25,997 bases of DNA from a virus. Positions within the stretch are counted from its first letter, which is position 1, and each line of letters begins with the position of its first letter. Both the position numbers and the translations under genes were made by a program. The DNA is taken from positions 1 to 25,997 of IMG/VR virus record IMGVR_UViG_3300042868_006866. One strand, given 5' to 3'. Below, in pieces: positions 864 through 25,600 of this stretch. A model generated the notes under the pieces. It saw only the letters and a list, made by a program, of their open reading frames with translations, ran no database searches and was not told the DNA's origin.

Positions 864-869
864 GACAAT

Positions 870-878
870 ATTGTACCA
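870..878 (-). promoter_or_regulatory. Extended -10 promoter, leaderless type
   Basis: On the minus strand TGGTACAAT is followed by six bases and then the ATG at 863. It fits a TGn extended -10 element, with transcription expected to start at or next to the A of the ATG. It lies in the short gap after the stop of the LamG-like tail gene at 890. Confidence 0.45.
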
Positions 879-4520: not shown

Positions 4521-6461
4521 CTACTTTGTAATGTCTACAATTTCACATGCTCCAGCAACACAAGATAGCTCCTGGCTACCAGTTGTTCCGTCTGTTGTTT
4601 CATAAAGAGAAAGCATATCCCAACGAATTGAGTCAGGCATCTTGCTTACCCAAGATTCATACTCTTCTTTTGAAATTTCTTGATAAGGTGCTTGCTTATA
4701 TGAATGCTCTACAGACGGAAGAAAAGACACTCCACCAATTGAGTCAAAGTTGTCAAACACCCAAGCACCAACACGCATCCACTCATCTTCTTCAACATTG
4801 ACTGTAACACTTGGATTATGCTCTGTCCAATGAGTTCTATATGTTTTCCACATTTCAAGATGATCAATTGCAGTTAAGTCTTTAGTTAGAACTGCATTCT
4901 TTGGAGCCTTTATTGGAAAATAAAACACTGTTGTAACTTCTGGCTTCATTACATCTGCTTCAAAAGGAATTCCAGAATCTTTCAAGAACTGCGTTAAAGG
5001 ATCTTTATTATCTGCTCTAACACTTCTTATGTAATATTCTGAATACCATGGATGGATGCCAGAGGATACACCTGTGAGCTGTGAGACTGTTCCTGAAGGC
5101 TTTACACAGGTAATTGATACTGAAGGGTTAATGTTTAAAGACTTAGCCTCTTTATCATTTACTGAAACAGATAGATCTCTCATTTCATCAAGTAGTGCTT
5201 CAAGAGCCTTTCCATTTGTAGCAGTAATCTTATTTCCATATATACCTGTTAAAGACACTCCAAGAAGTCTTTCTTCTTCACAGTTATCTCTCCAAGTTTT
5301 TCTGATGTACTTGAAATTAGTCAAAGTAGATTGCCATGTTCCTAAAATAGTAGCAAGTCTAATTTTTTCAAGCAAAGTTTCTTTTGTATCAGTTGCATCA
5401 ATTACAACCTCAGTTAAATTACAAAATTCATTTGGACGAAGAAGAATTTCTCCACAAGGATTTGTTCCACCAACAAGGCTTGAATCTCTACGACCAAATT
5501 TATCAATATGCTTACGAACAGAGTCCATGTTATATATTCCACGCTCTCCTGACTTTGATTCGTAAAGGTTACGCCATTCACGAAGGAACTGTGCAGTATT
5601 TGGCTTTGAATTATAAACAGCAGAGTTATTTGCCAATGCTCTTTGAGAATTTCCTTCCCACCATTGTCCACTCTTTGCCTTTGCCATTTCAAAGTCATCT
5701 AAGTTAGAAAGGGAAATTAAGGCACTTCTGCGAACTCCACCAACAACAACAACTTCTCCAACTTTGCACATAATGTCATGAGCTTCGATTGACTTAAGTC
5801 TTCTTCCTGAAGCCATCTTAAATGTTTCAATTGTAAACTTAAAAAGGTCAACTAGAGGATCAGGACCAGAAGCACGACCACCAAAAGTTTTTAGTCTTGC
5901 ACCAGAGGGGCGTACCTTTGAGGTATCCCAGTTTGGAATCTGACCTTGATAAAGAAGAGCAATTAATTCTTTATAAGCTTTAGCCCAGCCAAGCTTTGAA
6001 TCATCAACAACAATTGTTGTATTTGTTTCAAAAAATGATTCTGAAATAACTGGAAGTTGATTAATATATTTTTGTTCAACACTAAAACCAACACCAGTTC
6101 CATTCATCAAGATGTACATAGCCTCATCAAAGGCTCTAGGGCTATCCACAGCAATGAAAGAGCAATTGTATGCTGCGATATGGTCTCTTTCTAAAGCAGG
6201 TCCAGCGGTCATCAGAGCCCTCATGGAAGGCATTATGTGATGGTTTAAGATTGCCTCTCTAACTTCTCCAAATACTTTTGCATTTGGACTATAGCCATGA
6301 TTTAAAACAAGATGGTCTCTCATAAAGTTACAGTATCTGTCAACAGTCTCCTCCCATGTTTCTCTGCGGTTTTCGCTTTCAATCCAGCGAGCATACCTTG
6401 AGATATGAATAAAGTTGCGGTATGGATCTGTTATAGATCCGTTGGAGTCAATAAATGACAT
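4521..6461 (-). CDS. nrdJ: Adenosylcobalamin-dependent (class II) ribonucleoside-triphosphate reductase, monomeric type
   Basis: Reduces ribonucleoside triphosphates to dNTPs for phage DNA synthesis, using a cobalamin-generated thiyl radical. From the ATG at 6461 the protein has 646 residues; an upstream in-frame extension is rejected because AGAAGGA lies 11 nt before this ATG. Key residues are visible: Cys100 (AYNCSF) and Cys347 (FCNL) as the redox pair; the thiyl Cys336 in GGTNPCGEIL with Asn334 and Glu338; and a C-terminal CVAGAC pair (Cys634, Cys639) for re-reduction. The 11-residue gap between the thiyl and second redox Cys is as in the Lactobacillus leichmannii enzyme (408/419). The chain is about 90 residues shorter than that 739-residue enzyme. 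The gene is a metabolic gene among virion genes. Confidence 0.93.
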   Translation of the reverse strand: MSFIDSNGSITDPYRNFIHISRYARWIESENRRETWEETVDRYCNFMRDHLVLNHGYSPNAKVFGEVREAILNHHIMPSMRALMTAGPALERDHIAAYNCSFIAVDSPRAFDEAMYILMNGTGVGFSVEQKYINQLPVISESFFETNTTIVVDDSKLGWAKAYKELIALLYQGQIPNWDTSKVRPSGARLKTFGGRASGPDPLVDLFKFTIETFKMASGRRLKSIEAHDIMCKVGEVVVVGGVRRSALISLSNLDDFEMAKAKSGQWWEGNSQRALANNSAVYNSKPNTAQFLREWRNLYESKSGERGIYNMDSVRKHIDKFGRRDSSLVGGTNPCGEILLRPNEFCNLTEVVIDATDTKETLLEKIRLATILGTWQSTLTNFKYIRKTWRDNCEEERLLGVSLTGIYGNKITATNGKALEALLDEMRDLSVSVNDKEAKSLNINPSVSITCVKPSGTVSQLTGVSSGIHPWYSEYYIRSVRADNKDPLTQFLKDSGIPFEADVMKPEVTTVFYFPIKAPKNAVLTKDLTAIDHLEMWKTYRTHWTEHNPSVTVNVEEDEWMRVGAWVFDNFDSIGGVSFLPSVEHSYKQAPYQEISKEEYESWVSKMPDSIRWDMLSLYETTDGTTGSQELSCVAGACEIVDITK

Positions 6462-6527
6462 TTTGTAACACGTCCTTCTGATAAAATGTAATAGATACAT
6501 TCTACACGAGTATTCAAGGAGAAGCAA
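6462..6527. promoter_or_regulatory. Divergent intergenic region with probable back-to-back promoters
   Basis: This is the only divergent junction in the window, between the reductase (minus) and the small plus-strand gene. Plus strand: TGATAAAAT at 6479-6487 resembles an extended -10, and AAGGAG at 6516-6521 is a strong ribosome binding site 6 nt before the ATG at 6528. Minus strand: TAGAAT at 6504-6499 is a possible -10, with AGAAGGA at 6479-6473 before the reductase ATG. TGTAATAGATACA (6488-6500) is an imperfect palindrome that could be an operator. The -35 elements are not convincing on either strand. Confidence 0.4.
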
Positions 6528-6749
6528 ATGGATTTAACAATTCAAGAGGTTAATCACTATAACAATCTTGTAAAAAATAAGAAGGCGTTAAAAATAGAAT
6601 GCCAATTTGATGCTAATGATACTGTTGTTTCTAAAGTTGACAGTAGTGACAAAGTATTTTTTTATTGTCTTGGATGTCAAACATCTTTTTATCCAGGAAT
6701 TAATTTAATAGAAAAAATTAAAGGATATATTTCTTTATCTACTTCTTAA
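6528..6749 (+). CDS. Small unknown protein with CxxC motif; only plus-strand gene
   Basis: A 73-residue protein. The start is set by a strong AAGGAG Shine-Dalgarno 6 nt upstream. The N-terminal third is charged and helical (IQEVNHYNNLVKNKKALKIE). It is followed by a Cys at 25 and a CLGC pair at about 47-50 with an aromatic flank (FFYCLGCQTSFYPG), then a helix. Two or three Cys suggest a half zinc ribbon or a redox CxxC, but a full four-ligand site is not visible. Its 3' end overlaps the convergent gene at 6739-7269 by 11 nt. Function unknown; orientation opposite to all other genes suggests separate, perhaps earlier, expression. Confidence 0.7.
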   Translation: MDLTIQEVNHYNNLVKNKKALKIECQFDANDTVVSKVDSSDKVFFYCLGCQTSFYPGINLIEKIKGYISLSTS

Positions 6750-7275: not shown

Positions 7276-7281
7276 ATTATA
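7276..7281 (-). promoter_or_regulatory. TATAAT box 6 nt before a start codon
   Basis: A perfect TATAAT on the minus strand lies six bases before the ATG at 7269. Its central TAA is the stop codon of the GT-B glycosyltransferase gene. A leaderless promoter is the simplest reading; no clear -35 is seen. Confidence 0.4.
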
Positions 7282-8371
7282 ACGCAAGAATTTTTTTACA
7301 AACTTCGTCCCAATCGTATCCTCTTTGCTTCATTGAAAACTGCTCAGATATAATTTCAAAGTTTTTAGTTCTTTCTTCAAGTCTTACCTTTGGATCTAGC
7401 AATTCTTCCATATGACCAATCCATTCATCAGGAGTGTTTGCAATTCTTCCAACCCCAGCATCTGCAAATAGCTGATATTCTGGGAGCCCTCCAGATGCTA
7501 TAAAAGGAATTCCTGCTGCTGCATTTTCTAAACCTTTTAAGTAAGACTTTGCATGATTAAATTCAACATTTCTTAACGGAACAATTCCAACATCCATTTT
7601 TCTATACAATTCTGGAACATTCATCATTGTTTTCATTGGTTCAAATGTACAAATCTTTTTGTCAATTCCAATTTGATCAGATGCTTGTGGAGCATTTATA
7701 ACATTACCAGCATGATGAAACTTTAAATGTTTCTTTTTTAAAAACTCTCCAAAAAATGGTCTTAAAGTTTCTAAGTCTCCAGATCTCCATGGCGTAGCAC
7801 CAACCCATCCAAAAGTTGGAAGACGACCAGCATGGTCTTTTCTTTTTATCCCCCATCTTTCAATATCAATACCATTTCTTACTATAAATATTGGTTTATC
7901 TGGATATTTTTTTTGATAGAAATCTTTTAAAAATGGTGTAGAGGTTATTAGTGCATCTGCCTGTTCAATAATTGCAACATAATGATCTCTATTATTATTT
8001 GGATTTGAATCTGGATGAGTTGTTTTATATGCAAGATTAGTTTCTTCAAGACCTTCCATATGATCATCAATATCAACAACAATTTTTTGACCAAGCTCTC
8101 TTGCTCTTCTAACATGATCAACAAATCTTTCAAGCATAATTAGTTTTAAAACAATTATGTCCCAACCATGTATTGCTTTTTCTTCTGGAATCAAAATACC
8201 AAAAGCATGTTCTTCACTAAATCCTGGTATACCAATTCCACTTTCCCAGCCATGCTCCTTCAATTGCTTCATTGGAAGGTATGCTCTATACCAACCACAC
8301 CCATTTGGTTGCAGTGGCTTTACACCAAACGACCAGTCATAAGTTAAAAAAGCAATTGTTGGAGTTGGCAT
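7277..8371 (-). CDS. GT-B fold glycosyltransferase (family 1/4-like)
   Basis: A 364-residue enzyme expected to transfer a sugar from a nucleotide-sugar donor to an unknown acceptor. The N-terminal domain begins with a strand (TPTIAFLTYDW) and a GCGWYRAYLP loop. VVDIDDHMEGL at 98-108 and ITSTPFLKDF at 142-151 are typical of phage GT-B proteins. The interdomain segment FIVRNGIDIERW (162-173) leads to the C-terminal domain with TFGWVGATPWRSGDLETL (186-203). The donor-binding region is FNHAKSYLKGLENAAAGIPFIAS (271-293), whose Glu282 fits the family's nucleotide-binding acidic position. No membrane segments. It lies 7 nt downstream of the holin-like gene with no obvious ribosome binding site, so is probably coupled to it. 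A role in virion, teichoic or lipoglycan modification is inference. Confidence 0.85.
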   Translation of the reverse strand: MPTPTIAFLTYDWSFGVKPLQPNGCGWYRAYLPMKQLKEHGWESGIGIPGFSEEHAFGILIPEEKAIHGWDIIVLKLIMLERFVDHVRRARELGQKIVVDIDDHMEGLEETNLAYKTTHPDSNPNNNRDHYVAIIEQADALITSTPFLKDFYQKKYPDKPIFIVRNGIDIERWGIKRKDHAGRLPTFGWVGATPWRSGDLETLRPFFGEFLKKKHLKFHHAGNVINAPQASDQIGIDKKICTFEPMKTMMNVPELYRKMDVGIVPLRNVEFNHAKSYLKGLENAAAGIPFIASGGLPEYQLFADAGVGRIANTPDEWIGHMEELLDPKVRLEERTKNFEIISEQFSMKQRGYDWDEVCKKILAL

Positions 8372-8979: not shown

Positions 8980-10221
8980 CTATATCTTAATTATATAGTT
9001 TAAAGCTATATAAGGTTGTAAATTTGATAAACTATCTGAAGATGATATTGTGTGAGTATGTGTTGAAGAAAGGCTTGTATTGTTTCCTGCACTTGCTCCA
9101 CCTGTAGTGTTTCCTGCACTTGCTCCACCTGTAGTATTTCCTGCATTTGCTCCACCTGTAGTGACTCCAGCCCCATTAGCATTAGCGGTGTTTCCATAGT
9201 TTGAATTTCCTGAATTAAAAGATGCAATGTTTACACTATGAGAATGATTGCCCGAATTTCCTGTATTAAAATCATGAGTATGTCCAGAGTTTGAAGCACC
9301 TCTGATAGTAGTTGTTGATGCTGCATTTATTCCAGCACTATTTGGAATAGCCACAGTTCCATTATGGTCATGGTCTCCATTAGAAGTTGTGGAAGTTGTT
9401 CCAGGGTTTACAGCATGACTATGATCTGAGTAATGGCTGTGGTCTGCATAGTGTGAATGATCTGGTGTGTTATGTGAGTGATCTGTTGTGTTATGTGAGT
9501 GATCGTCTGTACTATGTGAATGTGATCCGTCTCCTCCAGAATTAGACCCTGCGTGTTGATGTGTCATTTGCCCACCAGTTTCTCCACGAGAATCAAATTG
9601 TGCTTGAGCAGCATCTATTCCAACTACAACTTTTCCTTTTAAGTTTGGAACATTAAAGCTTGCACCAGATCCTCCAAAAGTATATCCAACTACACCAAAA
9701 AGTGATGGGTATGTAGCAGATCCGTGAGAAGTTCCATCACACAATAGCCACCCAGTTGGAGCAGATGATCCAGCATGTATTGAAATCATTCCAACTGGAG
9801 TGTTAGTGTTTAATTGAGTTTGAACAGAGGAAGTAACTCCATCAACATAGTTAAGTTCTGTTGCTGTTGCAGTAAGTACAACATTTTCATTTATTTTTGG
9901 AGAGTCTAATCTTTTATTTGTAAGAGTTTGTTCAGTTCCAGTTCCAACAACTGAATTTCCAGCACCAACACCATGGACATCTGAAATTCCTCCAATATGA
10001 CCAGACAGTCCTGCTGTTGCTGAATCAATTCTGTTATCAAAATCTATTAAATTTGAATAAATGCTGTTAGTTGGATCAATTGTATTTCCATCTTCTGCAT
10101 TTCCATAATAAAAATATTCTAGTGCATTTTGAATATCAGCATTGTCAGATAGTTCTGGAACGTATGTATCAAAAGCTGGAGTATATCCTAAACCTTTTGT
10201 TTCACTAATTTTTTCTGCCAT
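8980..10221 (-). CDS. Tail-collar fibre protein with His-x-His array and tandem repeats
   Basis: A 413-residue tail fibre. Residues 1-140 form a stalk-like N-terminus with a 'GTEQTLTNKRLDSPKINENVV' adhesin-type repeat block at about 95-116. Residues 142-200 are a phage tail collar domain (VGMISIHAGSSAPTGWLLCDG through NVPNLKGKVVVGID). Residues 221-270 are a dense run of HSH triplets, and three 9-residue TTGGA[SN]AGN repeats lie near 355-380. The C-terminus (LQPYIALNYIIKI) is the usual closing strand. HxH repeats in T4 long-fibre tips chelate iron along a trimeric needle; the same role is inferred here. ATG 10221 is chosen over a GTG at 10230 because AGGTG lies 6 nt before it. Confidence 0.85.
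   Translation of the reverse strand: MAEKISETKGLGYTPAFDTYVPELSDNADIQNALEYFYYGNAEDGNTIDPTNSIYSNLIDFDNRIDSATAGLSGHIGGISDVHGVGAGNSVVGTGTEQTLTNKRLDSPKINENVVLTATATELNYVDGVTSSVQTQLNTNTPVGMISIHAGSSAPTGWLLCDGTSHGSATYPSLFGVVGYTFGGSGASFNVPNLKGKVVVGIDAAQAQFDSRGETGGQMTHQHAGSNSGGDGSHSHSTDDHSHNTTDHSHNTPDHSHYADHSHYSDHSHAVNPGTTSTTSNGDHDHNGTVAIPNSAGINAASTTTIRGASNSGHTHDFNTGNSGNHSHSVNIASFNSGNSNYGNTANANGAGVTTGGANAGNTTGGASAGNTTGGASAGNNTSLSSTHTHTISSSDSLSNLQPYIALNYIIKI
9081..9161 (-). repeat. Three tandem 27-bp repeats inside the tail-collar fibre gene
   Basis: Units at 9081-9107 and 9108-9134 are identical, and 9135-9161 differs at two positions. Each encodes the nonapeptide TTGGA[SN]AGN. Unit length is a multiple of three, so copy-number change by slippage would lengthen or shorten the fibre without a frameshift. 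Confidence 0.9.
9412..9525 (-). repeat. Degenerate repeat encoding DHSH units
   Basis: A run of short imperfect repeats (mostly 18-21 bp) encodes residues 233-270 of the fibre, with six DHSH units in succession after a first SHSH. The DNA repeats carry GTGAGTGATC/T-like cores (read on plus as TATGTGAGTGATC). Confidence 0.8.
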
Positions 10222-10222
10222 T

Positions 10223-10807
10223 TTATGCACCTACTCCAGCAGTTATATAAAAATTTATAGGAACTGCAGATGACGAAAGCAAAGAAACTGATCCCGAAGA
10301 TAGTTCTGCACCTTTTAATTCTGCAATAAAAGTTTTAACGGTAGAAACTGTTTGAATATCTTTGTTTGAAATAGATATAAAAGCTGGATTATTTAATTCT
10401 GAAGTTGCTTGAATAAGAATTGTATTTGGATCTAAAGTTTCTGGAGCATTGTCATAAAAAGATGCTAATGGAATTGAAATAGATCCAGAGCCAGCTGTGA
10501 AGTTAACTAGTTTTTGAATGCTATGAGATATGGGCTGAAATTTTAATATAGCTTGCCAAGAACTACCACCAGCTACTGCATTTAATTTATAAACAACTCC
10601 ATAATTTCCACCAAGAAGTCTATTTATATATAGATCGTTTATTTTTGCATCTACAAGACTTGCTGCATTTTGTGCAGGAGTTCCAACACCAGAATAGAAT
10701 TGAGAGCCTCTTTCTCCTTGTGGACCAATGTCAACACTTACAGATACTGAAGCAGGTGGTCCAACTACAACTAATTCATCATTAGATATAATAGTATCTA
10801 TTGCCAT
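10223..10807 (-). CDS. Virion structural protein with a collagen-like GPQGERG turn
   Basis: A 194-residue, Ser/Ala/Ile-rich beta protein. Residues 1-35 contain VVVGPPASVSVSVDIGPQGERGSQFYSGVG, a short Gly-x-y segment followed by a 'G-GTPAQ' turn that in phage minor tail proteins precedes a 'DLYIN...G..Y' strand pair, here DLYINRLLGGNYGVVYKL. The remainder is a beta-rich domain ending ITAGVGA. It lies between a BppU-like gene (1 nt gap) and the His-rich tail-collar fibre, overlapping neither in coding sense, so it probably connects or caps that fibre. Assigned by composition and neighbours. Confidence 0.65.
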   Translation of the reverse strand: MAIDTIISNDELVVVGPPASVSVSVDIGPQGERGSQFYSGVGTPAQNAASLVDAKINDLYINRLLGGNYGVVYKLNAVAGGSSWQAILKFQPISHSIQKLVNFTAGSGSISIPLASFYDNAPETLDPNTILIQATSELNNPAFISISNKDIQTVSTVKTFIAELKGAELSSGSVSLLSSSAVPINFYITAGVGA

Positions 10808-10808
10808 A

Positions 10809-11186
10809 TTAAGTTACCGCCACATCTTGTGTAACATTTATAGTTCCAGTTAAAAGTGTAAACACTTTTCCAAAAGAGGATGAGGATGCACTTGTGTTTT
10901 CAATTTGAAGGTCATAAAAGTAAGCTGCATCGGTTAATTTTCTACCGCCAGCTGGTTTAATTGTACAAGAAACGTGGTCTCCATCTTCAATAGTTGCTAA
11001 AGCTTCTGAAGAATCAAGAGAGTCTATAACAGATGCTGATGCACCTCTAGATGTAGCAACTAAAAAAAGTGCGGTGTAATTAGAAAGCTCATCAAATTCT
11101 GTACCAGTTGAATTTTTAGGGTATACAAAAAACTCAAAAGTGTCACCAGCATAGTAGTTAAAATTATATGTACCTGGAAATGCCAT
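10809..11186 (-). CDS. BppU-like N-terminal domain baseplate/minor tail protein
   Basis: A 125-residue protein that matches the fold pattern of BppU-type baseplate N-terminal domains: FNYYAGDTFEFFVYPKNS (GDTF opening strand), then a D-x-L-SNYTALFLVATSRGA strand, a KPAGGRKLTDAAYFYDLQI core, and a closing LLTGTINVTQDVAV strand. These domains anchor receptor-binding proteins to the tail tip. It is the first gene after the 11221-13783 cassette and has its own promoter-like TGGTATAAT and AAAGGTGA site, so it starts a short unit with the two tail genes that follow. Confidence 0.7.
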   Translation of the reverse strand: MAFPGTYNFNYYAGDTFEFFVYPKNSTGTEFDELSNYTALFLVATSRGASASVIDSLDSSEALATIEDGDHVSCTIKPAGGRKLTDAAYFYDLQIENTSASSSSFGKVFTLLTGTINVTQDVAVT

Positions 11187-11204
11187 AGTTAATCACCTTT
11201 CAAT

Positions 11205-11213
11205 ATTATACCA
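11205..11213 (-). promoter_or_regulatory. Extended -10 promoter TGGTATAAT
   Basis: A perfect extended -10 element on the minus strand, 18 nt before the ATG at 11186, with AAAGGTGA as ribosome binding site between. It lies in the 34-nt gap after the stop of the cassette gene at 11221. Confidence 0.6.
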
Positions 11214-11220
11214 CGCAGTA

Positions 11221-11940
11221 TTACTCAAAACTTTTTTTCTTCCAGATATTTTGCCTATACCATCCAGACAAACTATTTCTTGGAGACCATATTGGAGCAT
11301 TTTTAGGGGCTTGGTGCTTAGAGTACTCTAATTTCCAATTGTCTCTTTTAAAAGGTATTATTTGCATAATTGGTGTACCAGCCTTTATAACTCCTTCAAA
11401 ATTATTTTTTATAGAAAAAGGAATTCCTCCTGAAGCCATTCCTCCATCAGCATCTACTACTCCAGAAGTAGTAAAGGTATTTAATTCAAAATGATTCAAT
11501 GGCTGGGTTACTAAAATACTGTATCCTTTTGGAAGAAGAACTCCATGTCTAAAATTCCAAGCCTGGGTATAATCACCATATCCAGGAATACTTGGAATAT
11601 CTTTTACCAATACTGATGGTCTTGATTGCAATGGTTTAGTCTCTGAAGTCCAAGAAAGTTTTTGAACATCATCTACTATCTCTACCAAGATATCGCAGTG
11701 AAGTGTGACCATATAACCTAAGCTTAACGAATCTAAAAATGGAGAGCAACCTTTTAATCCAACATTAGTAAAACCTTTGCTGTCTATCTTTAAAGTACTA
11801 TCAGTAACATATCTTGAAAGATCCTTGTACCAGTCTGGAATAAATTTTCTTGAAGGCTCTATTTTACAAACGTCTCCTTCAAATACTTCATTCTTGTAAA
11901 TCCAAGTTTTGATTTTTTTATTTTTTATCTTGTTTCTCAT
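11221..11940 (-). CDS. Unknown cassette protein A, paralogue of the protein at 13082-13783; faint dUTPase-like C-terminus
   Basis: A 239-residue protein. It aligns by eye along its whole length with the gene at 13082-13783: IPDWYKDLSRYVTD (34-47) with IPEWYKKQSKYTQD; KGCSPFLDSLSLGYMVTL (63-80) with KACMPIFDMMTAGYTITL; LLPKGYSILVTQP (135-147); and GVVDAD (160-165) followed by NNFEGVIKAGTPIMQIIPFKRDNW (179-202). The last two blocks recall the dUTPase trimer motifs (GvIDxDYrGe, then ikkGdrIAQlv), but the uracil-binding Tyr and the RSG motif are absent. No membrane segments. Family name not known to me; proteins like this occur in phages as hypotheticals. Promoter-like TATAAT lies 32 nt upstream; no clear ribosome binding site. 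Confidence 0.7.
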   Translation of the reverse strand: MRNKIKNKKIKTWIYKNEVFEGDVCKIEPSRKFIPDWYKDLSRYVTDSTLKIDSKGFTNVGLKGCSPFLDSLSLGYMVTLHCDILVEIVDDVQKLSWTSETKPLQSRPSVLVKDIPSIPGYGDYTQAWNFRHGVLLPKGYSILVTQPLNHFELNTFTTSGVVDADGGMASGGIPFSIKNNFEGVIKAGTPIMQIIPFKRDNWKLEYSKHQAPKNAPIWSPRNSLSGWYRQNIWKKKSFE

Positions 11941-11972
11941 TTAAAACTCATTTCATTTAAATATCTTTTAAT

Positions 11973-11978
11973 ATTATA
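11973..11978 (-). promoter_or_regulatory. TATAAT box before cassette protein A
   Basis: A perfect TATAAT, preceded by GG, lies 32 nt before the ATG at 11940 on the minus strand, in the gap after the glycosyltransferase stop at 11986. The short leader holds two other ATGs that run into stops almost at once. Confidence 0.45.
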
Positions 11979-11985
11979 CCGTGTA

Positions 11986-12618
11986 CTACTCATAAAAAGA
12001 TTTAAGATATTCTTTAAAATTCCCTTTAAAAGAAGCACTACCTATATGGTATGGATCAATTGAGGGGTCAATAAATATCTTTCCACCTAAATCTTTCCAT
12101 TTTTTGCAAAACACAAAGTCTTCAGACATAATATTACCATCAATTATTTTTATTTCAAAAGCCATTTTATTTAACGAATCCCCCTCTTTATATTCTTCGC
12201 TAATATCCCAGACAGCCTTAGCTACCTTTTTAGATATCTTTAGAAAGCCTGTGCCAACAAAATCAACTTCCATTAATTCATCATTGCTAACCCTGTCAAA
12301 ACTAACATTGTAGTTATTGGAAGTTTTAAGTATAACTGGAGCACCTATAAAGTCTTTATCTGAGTCTATTAGTTTTAATAAATCATCTGGAGTCCATGCT
12401 TGGTCAGAGTCAATAAATATTAATTGATCGCAATCGGATTCAAGGAACACGGATAATAGCTTATTTCTGGCTAACTGAATAAGAGGCTCGTTGATTATAA
12501 TATCTAAGCAAAACTCCACATCCTTAGCTAAAGCTTTTTGGCTATTAAACAAAGATGTAACATAGTATGCACTCAATGCTGCATTACTAGATACCGTACC
12601 TATAAATACTTTTTTCAT
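11986..12618 (-). CDS. GT-A fold glycosyltransferase (family 2-like)
   Basis: A 210-residue glycosyltransferase. It opens with MKKVFIGTVSSNAALSAYYV. ARNKLLSVFLES (50-61) precedes the metal and nucleotide-sugar binding DxD in QLIFIDSDQAW (65-75, Asp70-x-Asp72). FVGTGFLKISKKVA (120-133) is the usual acceptor-side loop. SEDFVFCKKWKDLGGKIFIDP (165-185) holds the catalytic-base-like E-D pair, followed by HIG (191-193), a typical third metal ligand. It is a compact single domain with no membrane anchor, as usual for phage enzymes that glycosylate virion proteins, DNA or host glycans. The start shares one base with the upstream stop (TAATG), showing coupling to the helical gene before it. Confidence 0.88.
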   Translation of the reverse strand: MKKVFIGTVSSNAALSAYYVTSLFNSQKALAKDVEFCLDIIINEPLIQLARNKLLSVFLESDCDQLIFIDSDQAWTPDDLLKLIDSDKDFIGAPVILKTSNNYNVSFDRVSNDELMEVDFVGTGFLKISKKVAKAVWDISEEYKEGDSLNKMAFEIKIIDGNIMSEDFVFCKKWKDLGGKIFIDPSIDPYHIGSASFKGNFKEYLKSFYE

Positions 12619-13085
12619 TATCTATTGATTGCTGTGTTGTAATTGATTTCCCATTCATGATCTCCAAGACCATGAGTTCTCTGGAACTTTCTAAGAGCAA
12701 TGATGCTGTCAATGATTCCCTTGCGATAATCATCACTCATCTTTTCTCCTCTGTACCTGCCAGTGGTGGCTAGTTCAAGAAGGTCATAGAGCGGTGAGTA
12801 AACATTATCAAAGTTAAAAATAGACTCTAAAAACTTAGAACTAAGTGGAAAATCATTTCCTGCCTCTTTTAATTGCTTTAAACATTCTACAGCCATATCC
12901 ATAGTTTCAGCATTTGGAGTGGTATTCATATAATTCATCATTGTTGTAAATAGAATAAGTATGCTTAATTCATCAGGGTCTAGATGCTTATTAGCTACAT
13001 CCTTATCTATGCTTAAAATGTGGTGATGACCTTCATGTTCATTAGATATAATTTCATCAAAATACTTATCTATATTTTCTCTCAT
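12618..13085 (-). CDS. Helical acidic protein of unknown function in the glycosyltransferase cassette
   Basis: A 155-residue mostly helical soluble protein with a His cluster near the N-terminus (HEGHHHILSIDKD, about 17-29) and a conserved-looking stretch DDYRKGIIDSIIALRKFQRTHGL near 115-137. I do not recognise the family. Start MREN at 13085 is preferred to an ATG two codons upstream, because AGAAGG is 7 nt before it and the ATG overlaps the previous stop as ATGA. It ends in a TAATG overlap with the glycosyltransferase, so the two products are probably made together, perhaps as partner proteins. Confidence 0.7.
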   Translation of the reverse strand: MRENIDKYFDEIISNEHEGHHHILSIDKDVANKHLDPDELSILILFTTMMNYMNTTPNAETMDMAVECLKQLKEAGNDFPLSSKFLESIFNFDNVYSPLYDLLELATTGRYRGEKMSDDYRKGIIDSIIALRKFQRTHGLGDHEWEINYNTAINR

Positions 13086-13783
13086 TCCCATACCTTCTTT
13101 GTTCTATAAAATGTTTTATATCTATTCCCCAATTTTCTTTTTGCAAACTGAAAAAGTTCATCTTGACTTTTGCTAGAAACAGAAAACTTAGATTTCCAAT
13201 CTTCTCTTTTAAAGGGAATGACTTGAACAATTGGAGTTCCATAAGGAATTACACCTGAAAAATTTTCTTTAAGAAAGAATGGGAAATTTACCATAATAGG
13301 ATGTTTGTCTGTATCTACAATTGCTGGAAGTGTATAAAAAGGAAGATCTGGAACATATGTTGGATGAATAAACATAGTAGAATATCCTGGAGGGGTTTTT
13401 ATAATCCAAGGCTGTATAAATTTAAAAGCAACATTTTTTTGATACCCATCTAGAATATTAAACTCACTAAATTGAACTTTGTCGTGTGACTCTACACAAG
13501 TAAGAAGATCGGTACTCCATTTTACCTGTCCATTACCTTCAAAATATACATCTGCTGGTAAAGTAATTGTATATCCTGCAGTCATCATATCAAATATAGG
13601 CATACAAGCCTTTATGGTATGATTTGGATTTCCATTATCACCAATAGAGAAAGTATCTTGTGTATATTTACTTTGTTTTTTATACCATTCTGGAATTAGG
13701 CTGGAGGTTTTTTGTGGCTTATCAAACACTTCACCACTTATTTTATTTACAGCAATAAATTCAATTTCTTTATTTTTTTTCAT
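13082..13783 (-). CDS. Unknown cassette protein B, paralogue of the protein at 11221-11940; faint dUTPase-like C-terminus
   Basis: A 233-residue protein. Start at 13783 (MKKNKE) because AAGG lies 6 nt before it; an ATG two codons upstream is less well placed. It shares with paralogue A the IPEWYK block (30-35), the KACMPIFDMMTAGYTITL block (58-75), KTPPGYSTMFIHP (129-141), AIVDTD (154-159) and YGTPIVQVIPFKREDWK (181-197). The last two mirror the end of a dUTPase core, but with no catalytic Tyr or RSG motif. Cysteines and aromatics are spread out; no export signal. It is the first gene of the cassette that follows the tail-collar gene at 13792. A sugar- or nucleotide-binding beta barrel is a possible reading, not shown. 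Confidence 0.7.
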   Translation of the reverse strand: MKKNKEIEFIAVNKISGEVFDKPQKTSSLIPEWYKKQSKYTQDTFSIGDNGNPNHTIKACMPIFDMMTAGYTITLPADVYFEGNGQVKWSTDLLTCVESHDKVQFSEFNILDGYQKNVAFKFIQPWIIKTPPGYSTMFIHPTYVPDLPFYTLPAIVDTDKHPIMVNFPFFLKENFSGVIPYGTPIVQVIPFKREDWKSKFSVSSKSQDELFQFAKRKLGNRYKTFYRTKKVWE

Positions 13784-13791
13784 TATCATCC

Positions 13792-14595
13792 TTATATTTT
13801 GATAAAGTATAGCATGTTTACATAGGGGATGTCAATAGCTGATGATACTGGTATTGACACGTTTGCACTTGAAATGGTGTGAGAATGAGTTGCTTCTGAA
13901 TATGAAGTTGTGCCCCCAGAAGCGTCTCCTTCACTGTGACCGTGATACATATTTTCACTAGAGGTGCTAGATGAAAGTGCTGTCGCATTGAATGTATGTG
14001 TGTGTGCTGCACCTGCAGCAGTTCCAGTTCCATCTGCCTTAGTAAGTGTTGTACCAAGTCCTTGTCCAACAGTAAATCCTGGCATAGTATAGTCTACAGA
14101 ATGACTATGAGTTGCGTTAGAAGCACCAGTAGAGTAATTAACTGTTTGACTATGAGATCCACCTATTCCAGCAGAAATATTTGCTGCATTTGTATTAAGA
14201 TTTTCCCCAGACATTCCATTTACAGAATGACTATGAGTTACTGAGTTTGTAGTATTTGCACTAAGAGATGGAGTATAAATTCCTCCAGACACCACACTTT
14301 GACCATAAATATATCTTCTTGATGTTCTTAAGTCTGGAACTTTAAAATTAGTATTATTTGTGCCACCATAAATGTTTCCTATAATATTAAATAGGTTTTG
14401 ATATGAGGCGTAAGTTGCTGCATTCAAGGTTCTACCATCGCAAGGTATAATTCCAACGGCAATGCATTCAGCATCTGTATCATAATTCAATAGTGCTGAG
14501 GGAGGTGTTGCTTTTATAATAAGACTACCAGTTGGAATATAAGAATTTGTTGAAGATGTTGTATCAACTCCATCTTTTATATCAAAATTTACCAT
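13792..14595 (-). CDS. Tail-collar fibre protein with His-x-His motifs (third of three in a row)
   Basis: A 267-residue fibre protein. A tail collar domain spans about 21-98: IPTGSLIIKATPPS, then VGIIPCDGRTLNAATYASYQ, NLFNIIGNIYGG and FKVPDLR. The rest is a Ser/Thr/Asn/Gly-rich beta needle with repeated histidine pairs: THSHSVNG, GGSHSQTV, THSHSVDY, AHTHTFN, YHGHSEG and THSHTIS. Two copies of a THSHSV unit show internal duplication. It ends with the family closing strand IPYVNMLYFIKI. Its start overlaps the end of the previous collar gene by 7 nt (ATGGTAA). Probable role: receptor-binding tip whose trimer is held by metal ions. Confidence 0.8.
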   Translation of the reverse strand: MVNFDIKDGVDTTSSTNSYIPTGSLIIKATPPSALLNYDTDAECIAVGIIPCDGRTLNAATYASYQNLFNIIGNIYGGTNNTNFKVPDLRTSRRYIYGQSVVSGGIYTPSLSANTTNSVTHSHSVNGMSGENLNTNAANISAGIGGSHSQTVNYSTGASNATHSHSVDYTMPGFTVGQGLGTTLTKADGTGTAAGAAHTHTFNATALSSSTSSENMYHGHSEGDASGGTTSYSEATHSHTISSANVSIPVSSAIDIPYVNMLYFIKI

Positions 14596-17496: not shown

Positions 17497-17502
17497 ATCA
17501 CT

Positions 17503-17508
17503 ATTATA
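17503..17508 (-). promoter_or_regulatory. TATAAT box 6 nt before a start codon
   Basis: A perfect TATAAT preceded by GGGG on the minus strand. Its TAA is the stop codon of the 54-residue gene at 17504-17668. Six bases (AGTGAT) separate it from the ATG at 17496, where no ribosome binding site is visible, which favours a leaderless promoter. Confidence 0.45.
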
Positions 17509-17668
17509 CCCCCTCTGGAATCCAAGGCTCTGCTATATTTCCTTGTTCTACCCATTCTAAATAACCAGGATCTTCTTCTTTTAATCCTAGCCATGTTGGT
17601 ATACCGTCTTCATCAATTCTTACAACTAATCTACCCATAATTTGATCTTCTAATATTTTATATATCAT
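17504..17668 (-). CDS. Small fibre-associated protein (assembly-type)
   Basis: A 54-residue protein, starting at MIYKIL (17668) with GGAG just upstream and a TAATG overlap with the previous fibre stop; a longer in-frame start at 17692 would overlap the fibre gene further. The end (DPGYLEWVEQGNIAEPW) carries the 'Y..W..EGN..EP' pattern common in small phage proteins encoded next to tail fibres. Likely a fibre assembly aid or minor component for the carbohydrate-binding-like fibre before it; function inferred from position. Confidence 0.65.
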   Translation of the reverse strand: MIYKILEDQIMGRLVVRIDEDGIPTWLGLKEEDPGYLEWVEQGNIAEPWIPEGV

Positions 17669-18771
17669 TATAACTCCGCATTCGCTGTCCATGCACCGTT
17701 AGAAACAGTTATTGATGGAACCCCCACTATAAAAACCATTAAGCCATTATGAAAAGGTGATACGCTAACGGCATAAGAATTATTTGCCTGAGCACTAGAA
17801 TTATATATACTCCAAGTTCCTACTGCACTAGTTTCTGCATTGTACAATACCACGTCTGGTTGCCTTCTCATAGTTGTTTGAAATCTAATTAATCCTGAGT
17901 AAGCATTTCCTACTGTTGCATTATATATTGCAAGATTATTTCCAGTTCCATCTCCAGTTCCAGCTGGTGCAGATGGTGCAGTTGTTATTGGAAAACTTTT
18001 TTGAAAATATCTCTGACATAAAGATATTTCTGTACCAATAGGTCGTTGTTCAAACGGAGTGGCTATTGACCCTTTTTCCATTTGTATTCCCCAAAAATCA
18101 AAAGTGTTGTTTTGAATACCAAGTGATCCGCTACGAGCATTAAAATCAGCACCTGTAGATGTAAATAAGTCTAAGGCAATAAATGAGCTTGATCCAATTG
18201 TTTTTCCAGAAATAGAAGGAACCTGAACTGTTACCGAATATCTATTCCATAAAGTAGATAGAGTCACCTGACCTGCTAAAGTTGTTACACGAGTTGAGCC
18301 ACCTGATCCAAACTGTTGGTCTAGTTCAATAGCAACCTTTGGAGTACCAGATGCAGCCTTAGCCCAAAAAGATATAGTAACTGTTTGCCCTGCAAGCGAT
18401 CTAACATCTTCAATTTTTTGAATTAATGCTGCATAAGCACCAGACAAAGTTTGACCACTAGTAGTTAATCTTGCAAAACTTGTTGGCTCATATCCATCTA
18501 TAGCATTTCCAGGAGTAAATGTTTGTGCAGAGTGAGTCAATGTTCCATTATTTGCTTCTACATACCATCTATCAAAGCCATATCCTGAAGTATAGACTGT
18601 GCCAGAGGATCCTAAGCCACGTTGATTAATTCTAAAGTCACCATTAATAATTACATTTCTAAAACCACTAATTGGGGTAGTAGTCATGTTTGGATAGTTA
18701 TCTAAACTGACGGCAGGTGATGCTAATCCTACAAATTCACTTCCATCATATACATATGTTCTTTTAGCCAT
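17668..18771 (-). CDS. Carbohydrate-binding-like tail fibre protein
   Basis: A 367-residue fibre. The N-terminus (MAKRTYVYDGSEFVGLASP) is a virion-attachment strand. Residues 39-52 (NVIINGDFRINQRG) and FDRWYV open a jelly-roll domain typical of phage fibres and CBM-like modules; QTVTISFWAKAASG and FWGIQMEKGSIATPFEQRP (about 225-243) are its signature strands, followed by GTEISLCQRYFQKSFP. The C-terminal part (about 265-367) is a beta receptor-binding tip. The start overlaps the previous 76-residue gene by 8 nt. Expected to bind surface glycans. Confidence 0.8.
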   Translation of the reverse strand: MAKRTYVYDGSEFVGLASPAVSLDNYPNMTTTPISGFRNVIINGDFRINQRGLGSSGTVYTSGYGFDRWYVEANNGTLTHSAQTFTPGNAIDGYEPTSFARLTTSGQTLSGAYAALIQKIEDVRSLAGQTVTISFWAKAASGTPKVAIELDQQFGSGGSTRVTTLAGQVTLSTLWNRYSVTVQVPSISGKTIGSSSFIALDLFTSTGADFNARSGSLGIQNNTFDFWGIQMEKGSIATPFEQRPIGTEISLCQRYFQKSFPITTAPSAPAGTGDGTGNNLAIYNATVGNAYSGLIRFQTTMRRQPDVVLYNAETSAVGTWSIYNSSAQANNSYAVSVSPFHNGLMVFIVGVPSITVSNGAWTANAEL

Positions 18772-22623: not shown

Positions 22624-25600
22624 TTATGCTCCTAACCAAAAACTATTTGAAAGGGCAGTATTTGTAGATACCGCTCCGCCACCTGAACCTATTGATTGGT
22701 ACTCTGTACCATCATTTGTGAATTCCCATTCATCTTCTGTTTCATTAAATCTAATTGCAACATCAGTTAAGTCTCCACGATTTACTATTATACCAGCATT
22801 ACCCACTGGAGTTCCAGTTATACTTTCATTTAATGTTAAAAAGTCTGTAATTGGTTCACTAAGAACGTTAAAACTCATGGCATTATTTACATCAGTATAT
22901 AAAATTTCAATATTACTATGAGATCCACTAGAGAACATTGTGGATACAATATCCATTACCGCTTCATCATTAAGACTACTGGTTGCTTCTACCCAGAACG
23001 TGCCATCATATATGTACAACTTGCCAGTTTCATTATCAAACCACCCCATACCTTCTTCTGGAGAAGCTGGAGGAGTAGTAGAAACAACTGTTCCTGCTCC
23101 AGAACCTCCACCCTCTACCCACTCAAGACCAGTAGCTGTTCCATTTACAGCAAGAATATATCCAGCAGAACCAAGTGACGTTAAACCAGTTCCACCCTTT
23201 GTAGTAGGAATGACTGATCCATTCCAAGTACCTGAAACACTTCCTGAAAAATATGCATTTGATGCAGATATATCTGCTAAAGAAAATGATGCATGACCAG
23301 TATCAATATTTACTGCCTCATCTGGCTCTGGAGTATATCCATCAAAGAATTTAAATGTTCCATCTGATGCATCTCTAAATAAACCTGCGTGAGCATAACC
23401 TGCATCATAATATCCACCTGCAAATCCTAAGTCTGGATTGGCTTCTTCTTTTGCATGTGAGGTTCCACCAGAAACATATGATGCTCCAGGATCTGTTTTA
23501 ACAACTATAAAATATGTAGGAGTTGCAGAAGCAACAGTTAGATTATCTCCACTAGCAATATTAAATCCTGCTGGATCAACTCCAGTAATTCTAATATCCA
23601 TTCCAGCAGTATATAAATTTTCTGCAGTGTAAGTTATTGATCCACTTGAAAAAACTGCATTTGTAATAGTTGAATCAAGAGCAGCATTTAAATAAATTAA
23701 ATTATCATGAGTCGCAACTGTTTTAGTATTTTCAGTTGTTGTAGTTCCAGCTACATGCAAGTTTCCATCAATCCAAAGATCTTTTGCCACCCCAACTCCA
23801 CCAGATACAATTAAAGCACCAGTAGTGGCACTTGTAGATTCTGTTGTATTACTGATTGTAATAGCGTTTGTTGAAGTTGCACCACGATCAGTAACGGTCT
23901 CTAAAGTATCTGATTCTGAAGTTAAATAGCTTCCAATAGGCTGGTATATTGATGCTGCAGAAGCAGAAGTTAAATAGCTAGATAAATCCTGAACAACTGT
24001 TTCATTTATCCACTTTGAAGTGCTTGTATCCCAAACAAGTGCCTGTCCGTCTAAAGGTGTTCCTGTAATTACAACATTTGAAAGACTATTTATTGAATGA
24101 TTGTGAGATGTTAAAGAATATCCTGCAGCAGAATGATCTCCCCAAGCATATGCTGCATTCCAAGCTGAGGTTGAACCAGAAGTAATGTTAAAAGCATCTG
24201 ATGCAGTAAATATTGGATCTGACTCTGAAATTATATATGTATTTGAATCTACTGTCCAAGATCCAGATCCATTTGTTTTTAAGAATCCAGAAGTTCCAGA
24301 AATTGCAGAAATTGCAGTAAGGTCTGCATCTAATGGTTGATAATTTGTTGATGCTGAAGAAAGTGTTAGATAATTTGACAAGGTAGAAGTTAATGCACTA
24401 ACTGATCTTTCATTTGTAAAATATAGATTAGTTCCTTCTGAAAGATTTGTTGTAGTATATGAAGACATTCCTAAAAATGCAGTATCTTGAATTGATGCAT
24501 CTGGAAATTGTAATTCTCCATTATTATTAAATACAAAGTTTGCAGATCCTGAATTAGTTGTAATAGTAACACCATTATCATCACTTAATCTTATTGCATT
24601 AAGATATCCTTCAAGATTAATTGCACCGTCAGTAATTCCATCATATGATCTAATATTTATTACACTATCATATTCCCATCCATCTCTTGTAGCAAGATTT
24701 GCTTCTTCTGCTGTTTTATTTATCCAAATACCATTTGATAAATCATATGATAATATTTCATTATTTTGAACAGATCCAGAAATTAAAACATCAACAATAT
24801 CATGTAAATGTTGTCCAGGAATAGCTCTTGATAATATTCTTCCAGATGATGCGTGTACTCTTGTTACTGCTGCAACTGGAAATGTCCAATTTGGTGCAGT
24901 TGGCTTTACATTTGTTAGAAGTCCAGGAGTTGCTGGATTAATATAAAGTAAGTCTCCAAGTGCCCAACTTGCAGTATTAACGTTATTAATAAAACCAAAT
25001 TGTGTTACAAATCCAAATCCATCTGCTGGAATTTCTTCTGTTGTAATTCCAACAAAAAGCTCTGGTTCTGATGCTGATGTTGAAACTGCAGGAGATACCT
25101 TGACTGTATCTCCAGTAGCACCAGAAAACATAACAGCTGTTCTATCTGGTATTGCAACAGAATTAGAATTATTTTTAACTCTAATAACATGCTCTTGACC
25201 AATTTGAAGTGTAACGCCATTTGATTGAAGTTTTAAGGTTTCAAAATCATTATCCCATGAAAGTGTTCCAATTTCTTCACTTGTATTTTCAGGGGTAGTA
25301 TCAAAAGTAATATAATCTGGGTAAACAATAGAATCAATAGATACTAAAGATCCACTAGTATTTAAATTAATAACATTATTTACATCATCATAAATTGCTG
25401 TAACATTTGTATTACTAGCACTTGTAAATAAAAGAGCAACATAATCTTGGACTTGTTCTTGAGTTAATGGAGGATTTTCTATTACTCCATTTATTTCTAC
25501 CCAATAAGTTCCATCATATACATAGAATTCACCAGTATCATTTTTATACCAAGAATCTCCGATTTCTGGAGAAGTTGGCTCTGTTGTGCTAACGGTTGTT

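Follow-up and report, generated by a model that had tools for sequence, protein, structure and literature searches.

A variable slot behind phage tail fibres carries an old pair of paralogues with a predicted dUTPase-type fold

The DNA analyzed here, called the window below, is a whole IMG/VR virus record of 25,997 bases. All four ORFs that the sequence-only reading had described as a non-structural group between fibre genes were confirmed on the − strand, and fibres with the phage tail collar domain (Collar, PF07484) were found on both sides. In the order of transcription, the upstream Collar fibre (13792-14595, − strand), one border of the slot discussed below, is followed on the same strand by U1 (13082-13789), H (12618-13091), GT (11986-12618), U2 (11221-11940) and a phrog_1084 gene (10809-11186), then by an ORF at 10223-10807 and the second Collar fibre (8980-10230). 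The phrog_1084 gene is the downstream border of the slot and is syntenic in three related loci (L003, L014 and L015). U1 and U2 had been termed ‘unknown B’ and ‘unknown A’, respectively; U1 is an A-type, phrog_7084/DUF6065-like protein with a predicted dUTPase/DCD fold, and U2 is its faster evolving B-type paralogue in phrog_7084. GT is a GT-A-like glycosyltransferase of phrog_1574, and H is a mostly helical protein with no family assigned. Translation of U1 may start at Met3 (13783), the start used in the sequence-only reading.

Both gene overlaps reported earlier are present: ATGA at 13085-13082 joins U1 and H if H begins at Met3 (the overlap is 10 nt if it begins at Met1), and TAATG at 12620-12616 joins H and GT. 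A TATAAT element had been assigned to U2 as its own; it does lie 38 nt upstream of the gene, within GGTATAATATT (11970-11980, − strand), but it is not conserved. In the closest relative, L003, GT is directly followed by U2 with no TATAAT-type element between them, hence a promoter of its own is not a conserved feature of U2. The extended element GGTATAATAnT has five matches with at most one mismatch in the window (867-877, 11202-11212, 11970-11980, 17500-17510 and 22784-22794, all on the − strand) versus 1.2 expected. Four of the five are situated immediately upstream of genes, and the copy preceding the gene at 10809-11186 is kept in L003 (GGTATAATAATT). Judged by sequence, the element is a possible phage promoter.

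The two flanking proteins share homology along roughly 200 aa (33% identity by BLASTP, E = 3e-29), and both match phrog_7084, a PHROG annotated as ‘unknown function’, over nearly their full length (1.3e-48 for U1 and 8.6e-33 for U2); the paralogy proposed before was upheld by the alignment as well as by the profile. The U1/U2 family is related to DUF6065 (PF19541), which has no recorded function and is mentioned in no paper of the literature searched. This profile was matched by 49 of 93 relatives (best 1.3e-11); U1 scored 16.3 bits where the curated cut-off is 26.6 bits, whereas no match was obtained with U2. The NCBIfam profile search produced a chance-level match only, and the sequence search against solved structures gave no credible match. 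A defence role of the family was discarded, as the PADLOC search gave no match.

At least 561 viral stretches carry the family. Within the phage collection nearly all matches came from Hafunaviridae-type haloviruses. The family is also present in many alphaproteobacterial chromosomes, mostly as single genes with uninformative neighbours; the copies in Rhizobiaceae and Rhodobacteraceae have no fibre genes around. When 93 sequences from viruses and bacteria were aligned (alignment A3), eight columns were invariant, and many polar residues are invariant across viral and cellular members.

In a maximum-likelihood tree of 50 sequences the second copies formed one clade, and the split into two clades was well supported (UFBoot 98/SH-aLRT 96). 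Each of the 16 multi-copy loci sampled in the tree has both A- and B-type genes. A-type proteins mostly have His102, Gln106, Lys/Arg123 and Arg229, B-type proteins mostly Arg102 and always Trp229, while W35, K60, S137, P143, D161 and R195 are invariant in both types alike. Two supported clades with diagnostic residues identify the A/B pair as the product of an old duplication, whose two copies have stayed together in several groups of phages. Such retention suggests cooperation of the two proteins, perhaps in a mixed oligomer. Identity between the window and L003 is 81% for U1, 78% for H, 64% for GT, 50% for U2 and 46–60% for Collar-type fibres. At 5995-6717 of another locus, L049, an in-frame TAA interrupts the A-type gene; the adjoining B-type copy is intact.

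The GT-A glycosyltransferase named in the sequence-only reading has the acidic motifs expected of it: IDSD (residues 69-72) and SED (165-167), kept together with the C-terminal His191 in six aligned relatives. Both Asp of IDSD are invariant in six sequences, with Ser or Ala in the middle of DSD. GT shares this DxD-like metal motif with GT-A glycosyltransferases and stays under the Pfam cut-offs (20.3 bits versus 28.8 for Anp1, PF03452; 13.9 bits versus 23.3 for Glycos_transf_2, PF00535). No family match was found for H in the searches, and its AF2 model (pLDDT 56) was too poor for interpretation.

Elsewhere in the window, a second glycosyltransferase, of GT-B type (7277-8371, − strand; Glyco_trans_1_4 just under the cut-off), is conserved in L003, L014 and L015. 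The fibre-region protein at 17668-18771 (− strand) has a carbohydrate-binding domain, CBM_4_9, and is a candidate receptor-binding protein. A class II (B12-dependent) ribonucleotide reductase (RNR) with a TTG start is encoded at 4521-6527 (− strand); it is about 62% identical to enzymes of Streptomyces phages, a likeness in sequence that hints at an actinobacterial host.

The complete four-gene set was found, beyond the window, in L003 and L004 only, two near-identical contigs. At the same site, L014, a close relative with 94% identity to the window in RNR and 93% in GT1, has the A-type gene alone, and L015 has the A-type gene with an unrelated 97-aa ORF. An A-type gene is combined with H in L010, L013, L017 and L025; in L016, L018 and L023 it is found with a B-type gene, a small ORF and a phrog_1574 GT, without H. 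In all seven non-redundant loci having H, this gene immediately follows the A-type gene. Since gene content differs in this way among relatives, the site behind the fibre genes is a variable slot rather than a fixed four-gene unit, and is best called a variable cargo slot with the A-type (U1) gene as its constant member. The comparison rules out one conserved unit of four genes, and the single functional module proposed earlier did not survive the co-occurrence check.

The AlphaFold/Foldseek comparison, run on U1, pointed to a dUTPase-type fold. The AF2 model of U1, built with 93 sequences, had pLDDT 95.8 and pTM 0.89. Among the 50 PDB matches listed by Foldseek, 49 were dUTPases and one was a dCTP deaminase (probability 0.99-1.00, best E 6e-4). 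The TM score reached 0.76 when normalized by target and was about 0.4 when normalized by query, as U1 has some 100 extra residues. In BFVD, family members and unnamed proteins came first, and then annotated dUTPases dominated. Computed from this model, a fold of the dUTPase/dCTP-deaminase type is very likely for U1.

An independent sequence test agreed. We used hhalign to compare the family with a profile of canonical dUTPases from related loci and an E. coli sequence taken to be its dUTPase. The score was 32.3 (E = 3e-4, with a probability of only 39.5%), while 200 column-shuffled controls had a mean of 13.2 and a maximum of 26.1, and the reversed profile scored 16.2. In the alignment GIVDTD/AIVDTD of the family is paired with GLIDSD, and GTPIxQ (YGTPIVQVI) with GERIAQ (PGERIAQMI); the N-terminal halves, where the motif I Asp is expected, gave E = 0.21 and no alignment. 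Fold kinship with dUTPases is thus well supported. Membership among the dUTPase enzymes is not: neither the motif II serine (PRSxxG) nor the glycine-rich motif V is present, and the Pfam model is blind to the family. The consensus of the 93 sequences instead has HPxxRxDLPF and a basic/aromatic tail, YK...K. The PF00692 profile matched neither U1 nor U2, and only one of the 93 relatives, at E = 0.063.

Because the loci compared were selected for their similarity to U1, the counts of neighbours are biased and do not represent a census. Among 62 non-redundant virus loci, fibre-type genes were located within a few genes of the family member in 31, glycosyltransferases in 20, 2OG-Fe(II) oxygenases in 9, and RNR or ThyX in 7. 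The Pfam scan of 101 selected neighbours gave Collar (15), GlcNAc PF11397 (10), 2OG-FeII_Oxy_3 (10), Glycos_transf_2 (6) and RNR small chain (5). In random-shift tests per lineage, proximity was better than random for Collar (P = 0.02) and for phrog_1574, the family of the window's GT (P = 0.01). An association with PF11397 GlcNAc-transferases was significant only with related contigs counted separately (P = 0.17 per lineage) and was rejected. A general association with RNR was not significant either (P = 0.08 for all and P = 0.11 per lineage; 24 records with both), although individual close cases exist. On the question whether the family stands in for a missing dUTPase, PF00692 was matched in only 5 of 46 virus records, with co-occurrence in some, a count made without a control; a canonical dUTPase is present in 15 of 18 cellular carriers.

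We lean, by a little, to the view that U1 and U2 are anciently split paralogues whose family diverged within the dUTPase/dCTP-deaminase (beta-clip) fold, and that they bind some nucleotide-type ligand that is not dUTP. The fold and the invariant polar residues are most simply read as a dUTPase-like site for a ligand of this type, which is probable. The dUTP itself is an unlikely ligand, as motifs are lost and the family coexists with true dUTPases. Haloviruses suggest a dNTP, whereas the glycosyltransferase neighbours suggest a sugar nucleotide. As the Asp of motif III and the Gln of motif IV are retained, hydrolysis is plausible. U1 and U2 would most likely bind the ligand, and probably hydrolyse it, with the core of motifs III and IV that they have kept (Asp159/Asp161 and GTPIxQxIPFKR), to which the family-specific Lys60, Cys62, Lys194, Arg195 and Tyr224 would add; the proteins would perhaps form homo- or mixed trimers. 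In this phage they share the slot behind the tail fibres with GT and H, and may work jointly with GT.

A different reading, which we regard as unlikely yet deserving attention, is that U1 and U2 are enzymes of the dNTP pool (a non-canonical dNTP phosphatase or related) aiding phage DNA synthesis, with an incidental position at the fibres. It draws on the haloviruses, as the family gene stands beside RNR in HF2 and beside ThyX in HSTV-2; at 48-49 kb, the HF2 gene is at the margin of what PMC8707807 describes as the early-middle region. S-RIM4 has its family gene after RNR A/B, within about 2 kb, and in a T4-like group RNR genes are no more than 2 kb from the gene and a canonical dUTPase is close as well; the window itself has the class II RNR. 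Against this reading, proximity to RNR was no better than random shifts, and in half of the sampled loci the gene is on the fibre side instead; at no sampled locus were fibre and RNR/ThyX genes both present within a few genes. A canonical dUTPase or DCD is already encoded by several carriers. The T4-like locus L067 (2046-6641) has a canonical dUTPase, genes for the large and small RNR subunits and a family member within 5 kb.

A place beside the fibres would fit a structural protein or a chaperone as well. U1 and U2 as trimeric non-enzymatic partners of fibres (assembly chaperones or minor virion parts), with the dUTPase trimer used as a scaffold, appear to us rather improbable. Fibres and canonical dUTPases are both trimers, many phages have the family directly behind Collar fibres, a proximity beyond that of random shifts, and U2 diverges about as fast as fibres do. 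On the other hand, single chromosomal copies in Rhizobiaceae and Rhodobacteraceae occur away from fibre genes and halovirus copies are replication-side; moreover, the same polar residues are invariant in all contexts, which argues for a ligand site.

A four-gene unit in which a nucleotide sugar is made or processed to modify virions or host surfaces with glycans is very doubtful. In its favour, a GT-A-like GT belongs to the set, each of the five sequences in the closest U2 clade adjoins such a GT or is one gene from it, and several glycosyltransferase families as well as 2OG-Fe(II) oxygenases are found repeatedly around family genes. Against it, the set is not conserved as a unit, the PF11397 proximity is not significant per lineage and no sugar-nucleotide synthesis gene was recognized in the cassette. 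The earlier guess at glycan or nucleotide-sugar processing thus came near the mark in its link to nucleotides, which the fold shares, and failed in its four-gene unit. We give slightly less credence still to A and B as two subunits of a dUTPase-fold enzyme that turns over nucleotide sugars or by-products for phage-encoded glycosylation of tail fibres; if true, the dUTPase fold would be used outside dNTP metabolism. In L005, L071, L078, L081, L047 and L062, tandem A and B genes have a glycosyltransferase and at least one 2OG-Fe(II) oxygenase close by. L047 and L062 also have glycosyltransferases of PF11397, a family that includes hydroxyproline GlcNAc-transferases. These loci could be hydroxylation-glycosylation sets.

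For the reading that we prefer, that of a divergent dUTPase-like pair with a ligand other than dUTP, what is new is the assignment of a fold and the recognition of A and B as an ancient pair. A large family of viral, haloviral and alphaproteobacterial proteins without a functional label gains its first testable function; the fold placement, the named invariant residues and the A/B split make this function directly testable, including in the cultured haloviruses HF2 and HSTV-2. A nucleotide-fold protein is also added to the variable slots beside phage fibres, which are usually searched only for receptor-binding genes.

Compared with known enzymes, U1 is about 100 residues longer than a trimeric dUTPase (PF00692). 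In the mapping computed from the model and profiles, D159 (D in 86 of 93 sequences and E in 7) pairs with the first Asp of GLIDSD, the motif III Asp of trimeric dUTPases (GhIDxxYxG); the Tyr-x-Gly after this Asp is not kept. Motif IV (GxxIAQ) corresponds to GTPIxQ, with Gly in 87 and Gln in 91 of 93 sequences and the Ala not kept. In dCTP deaminases the strand that follows motif III has a catalytic Glu; the U1/U2 family has no conserved Glu there, and its consensus is VNFPFFI. In turn, the family has invariant residues of its own, W35, K60, C62, R195 and Y224.
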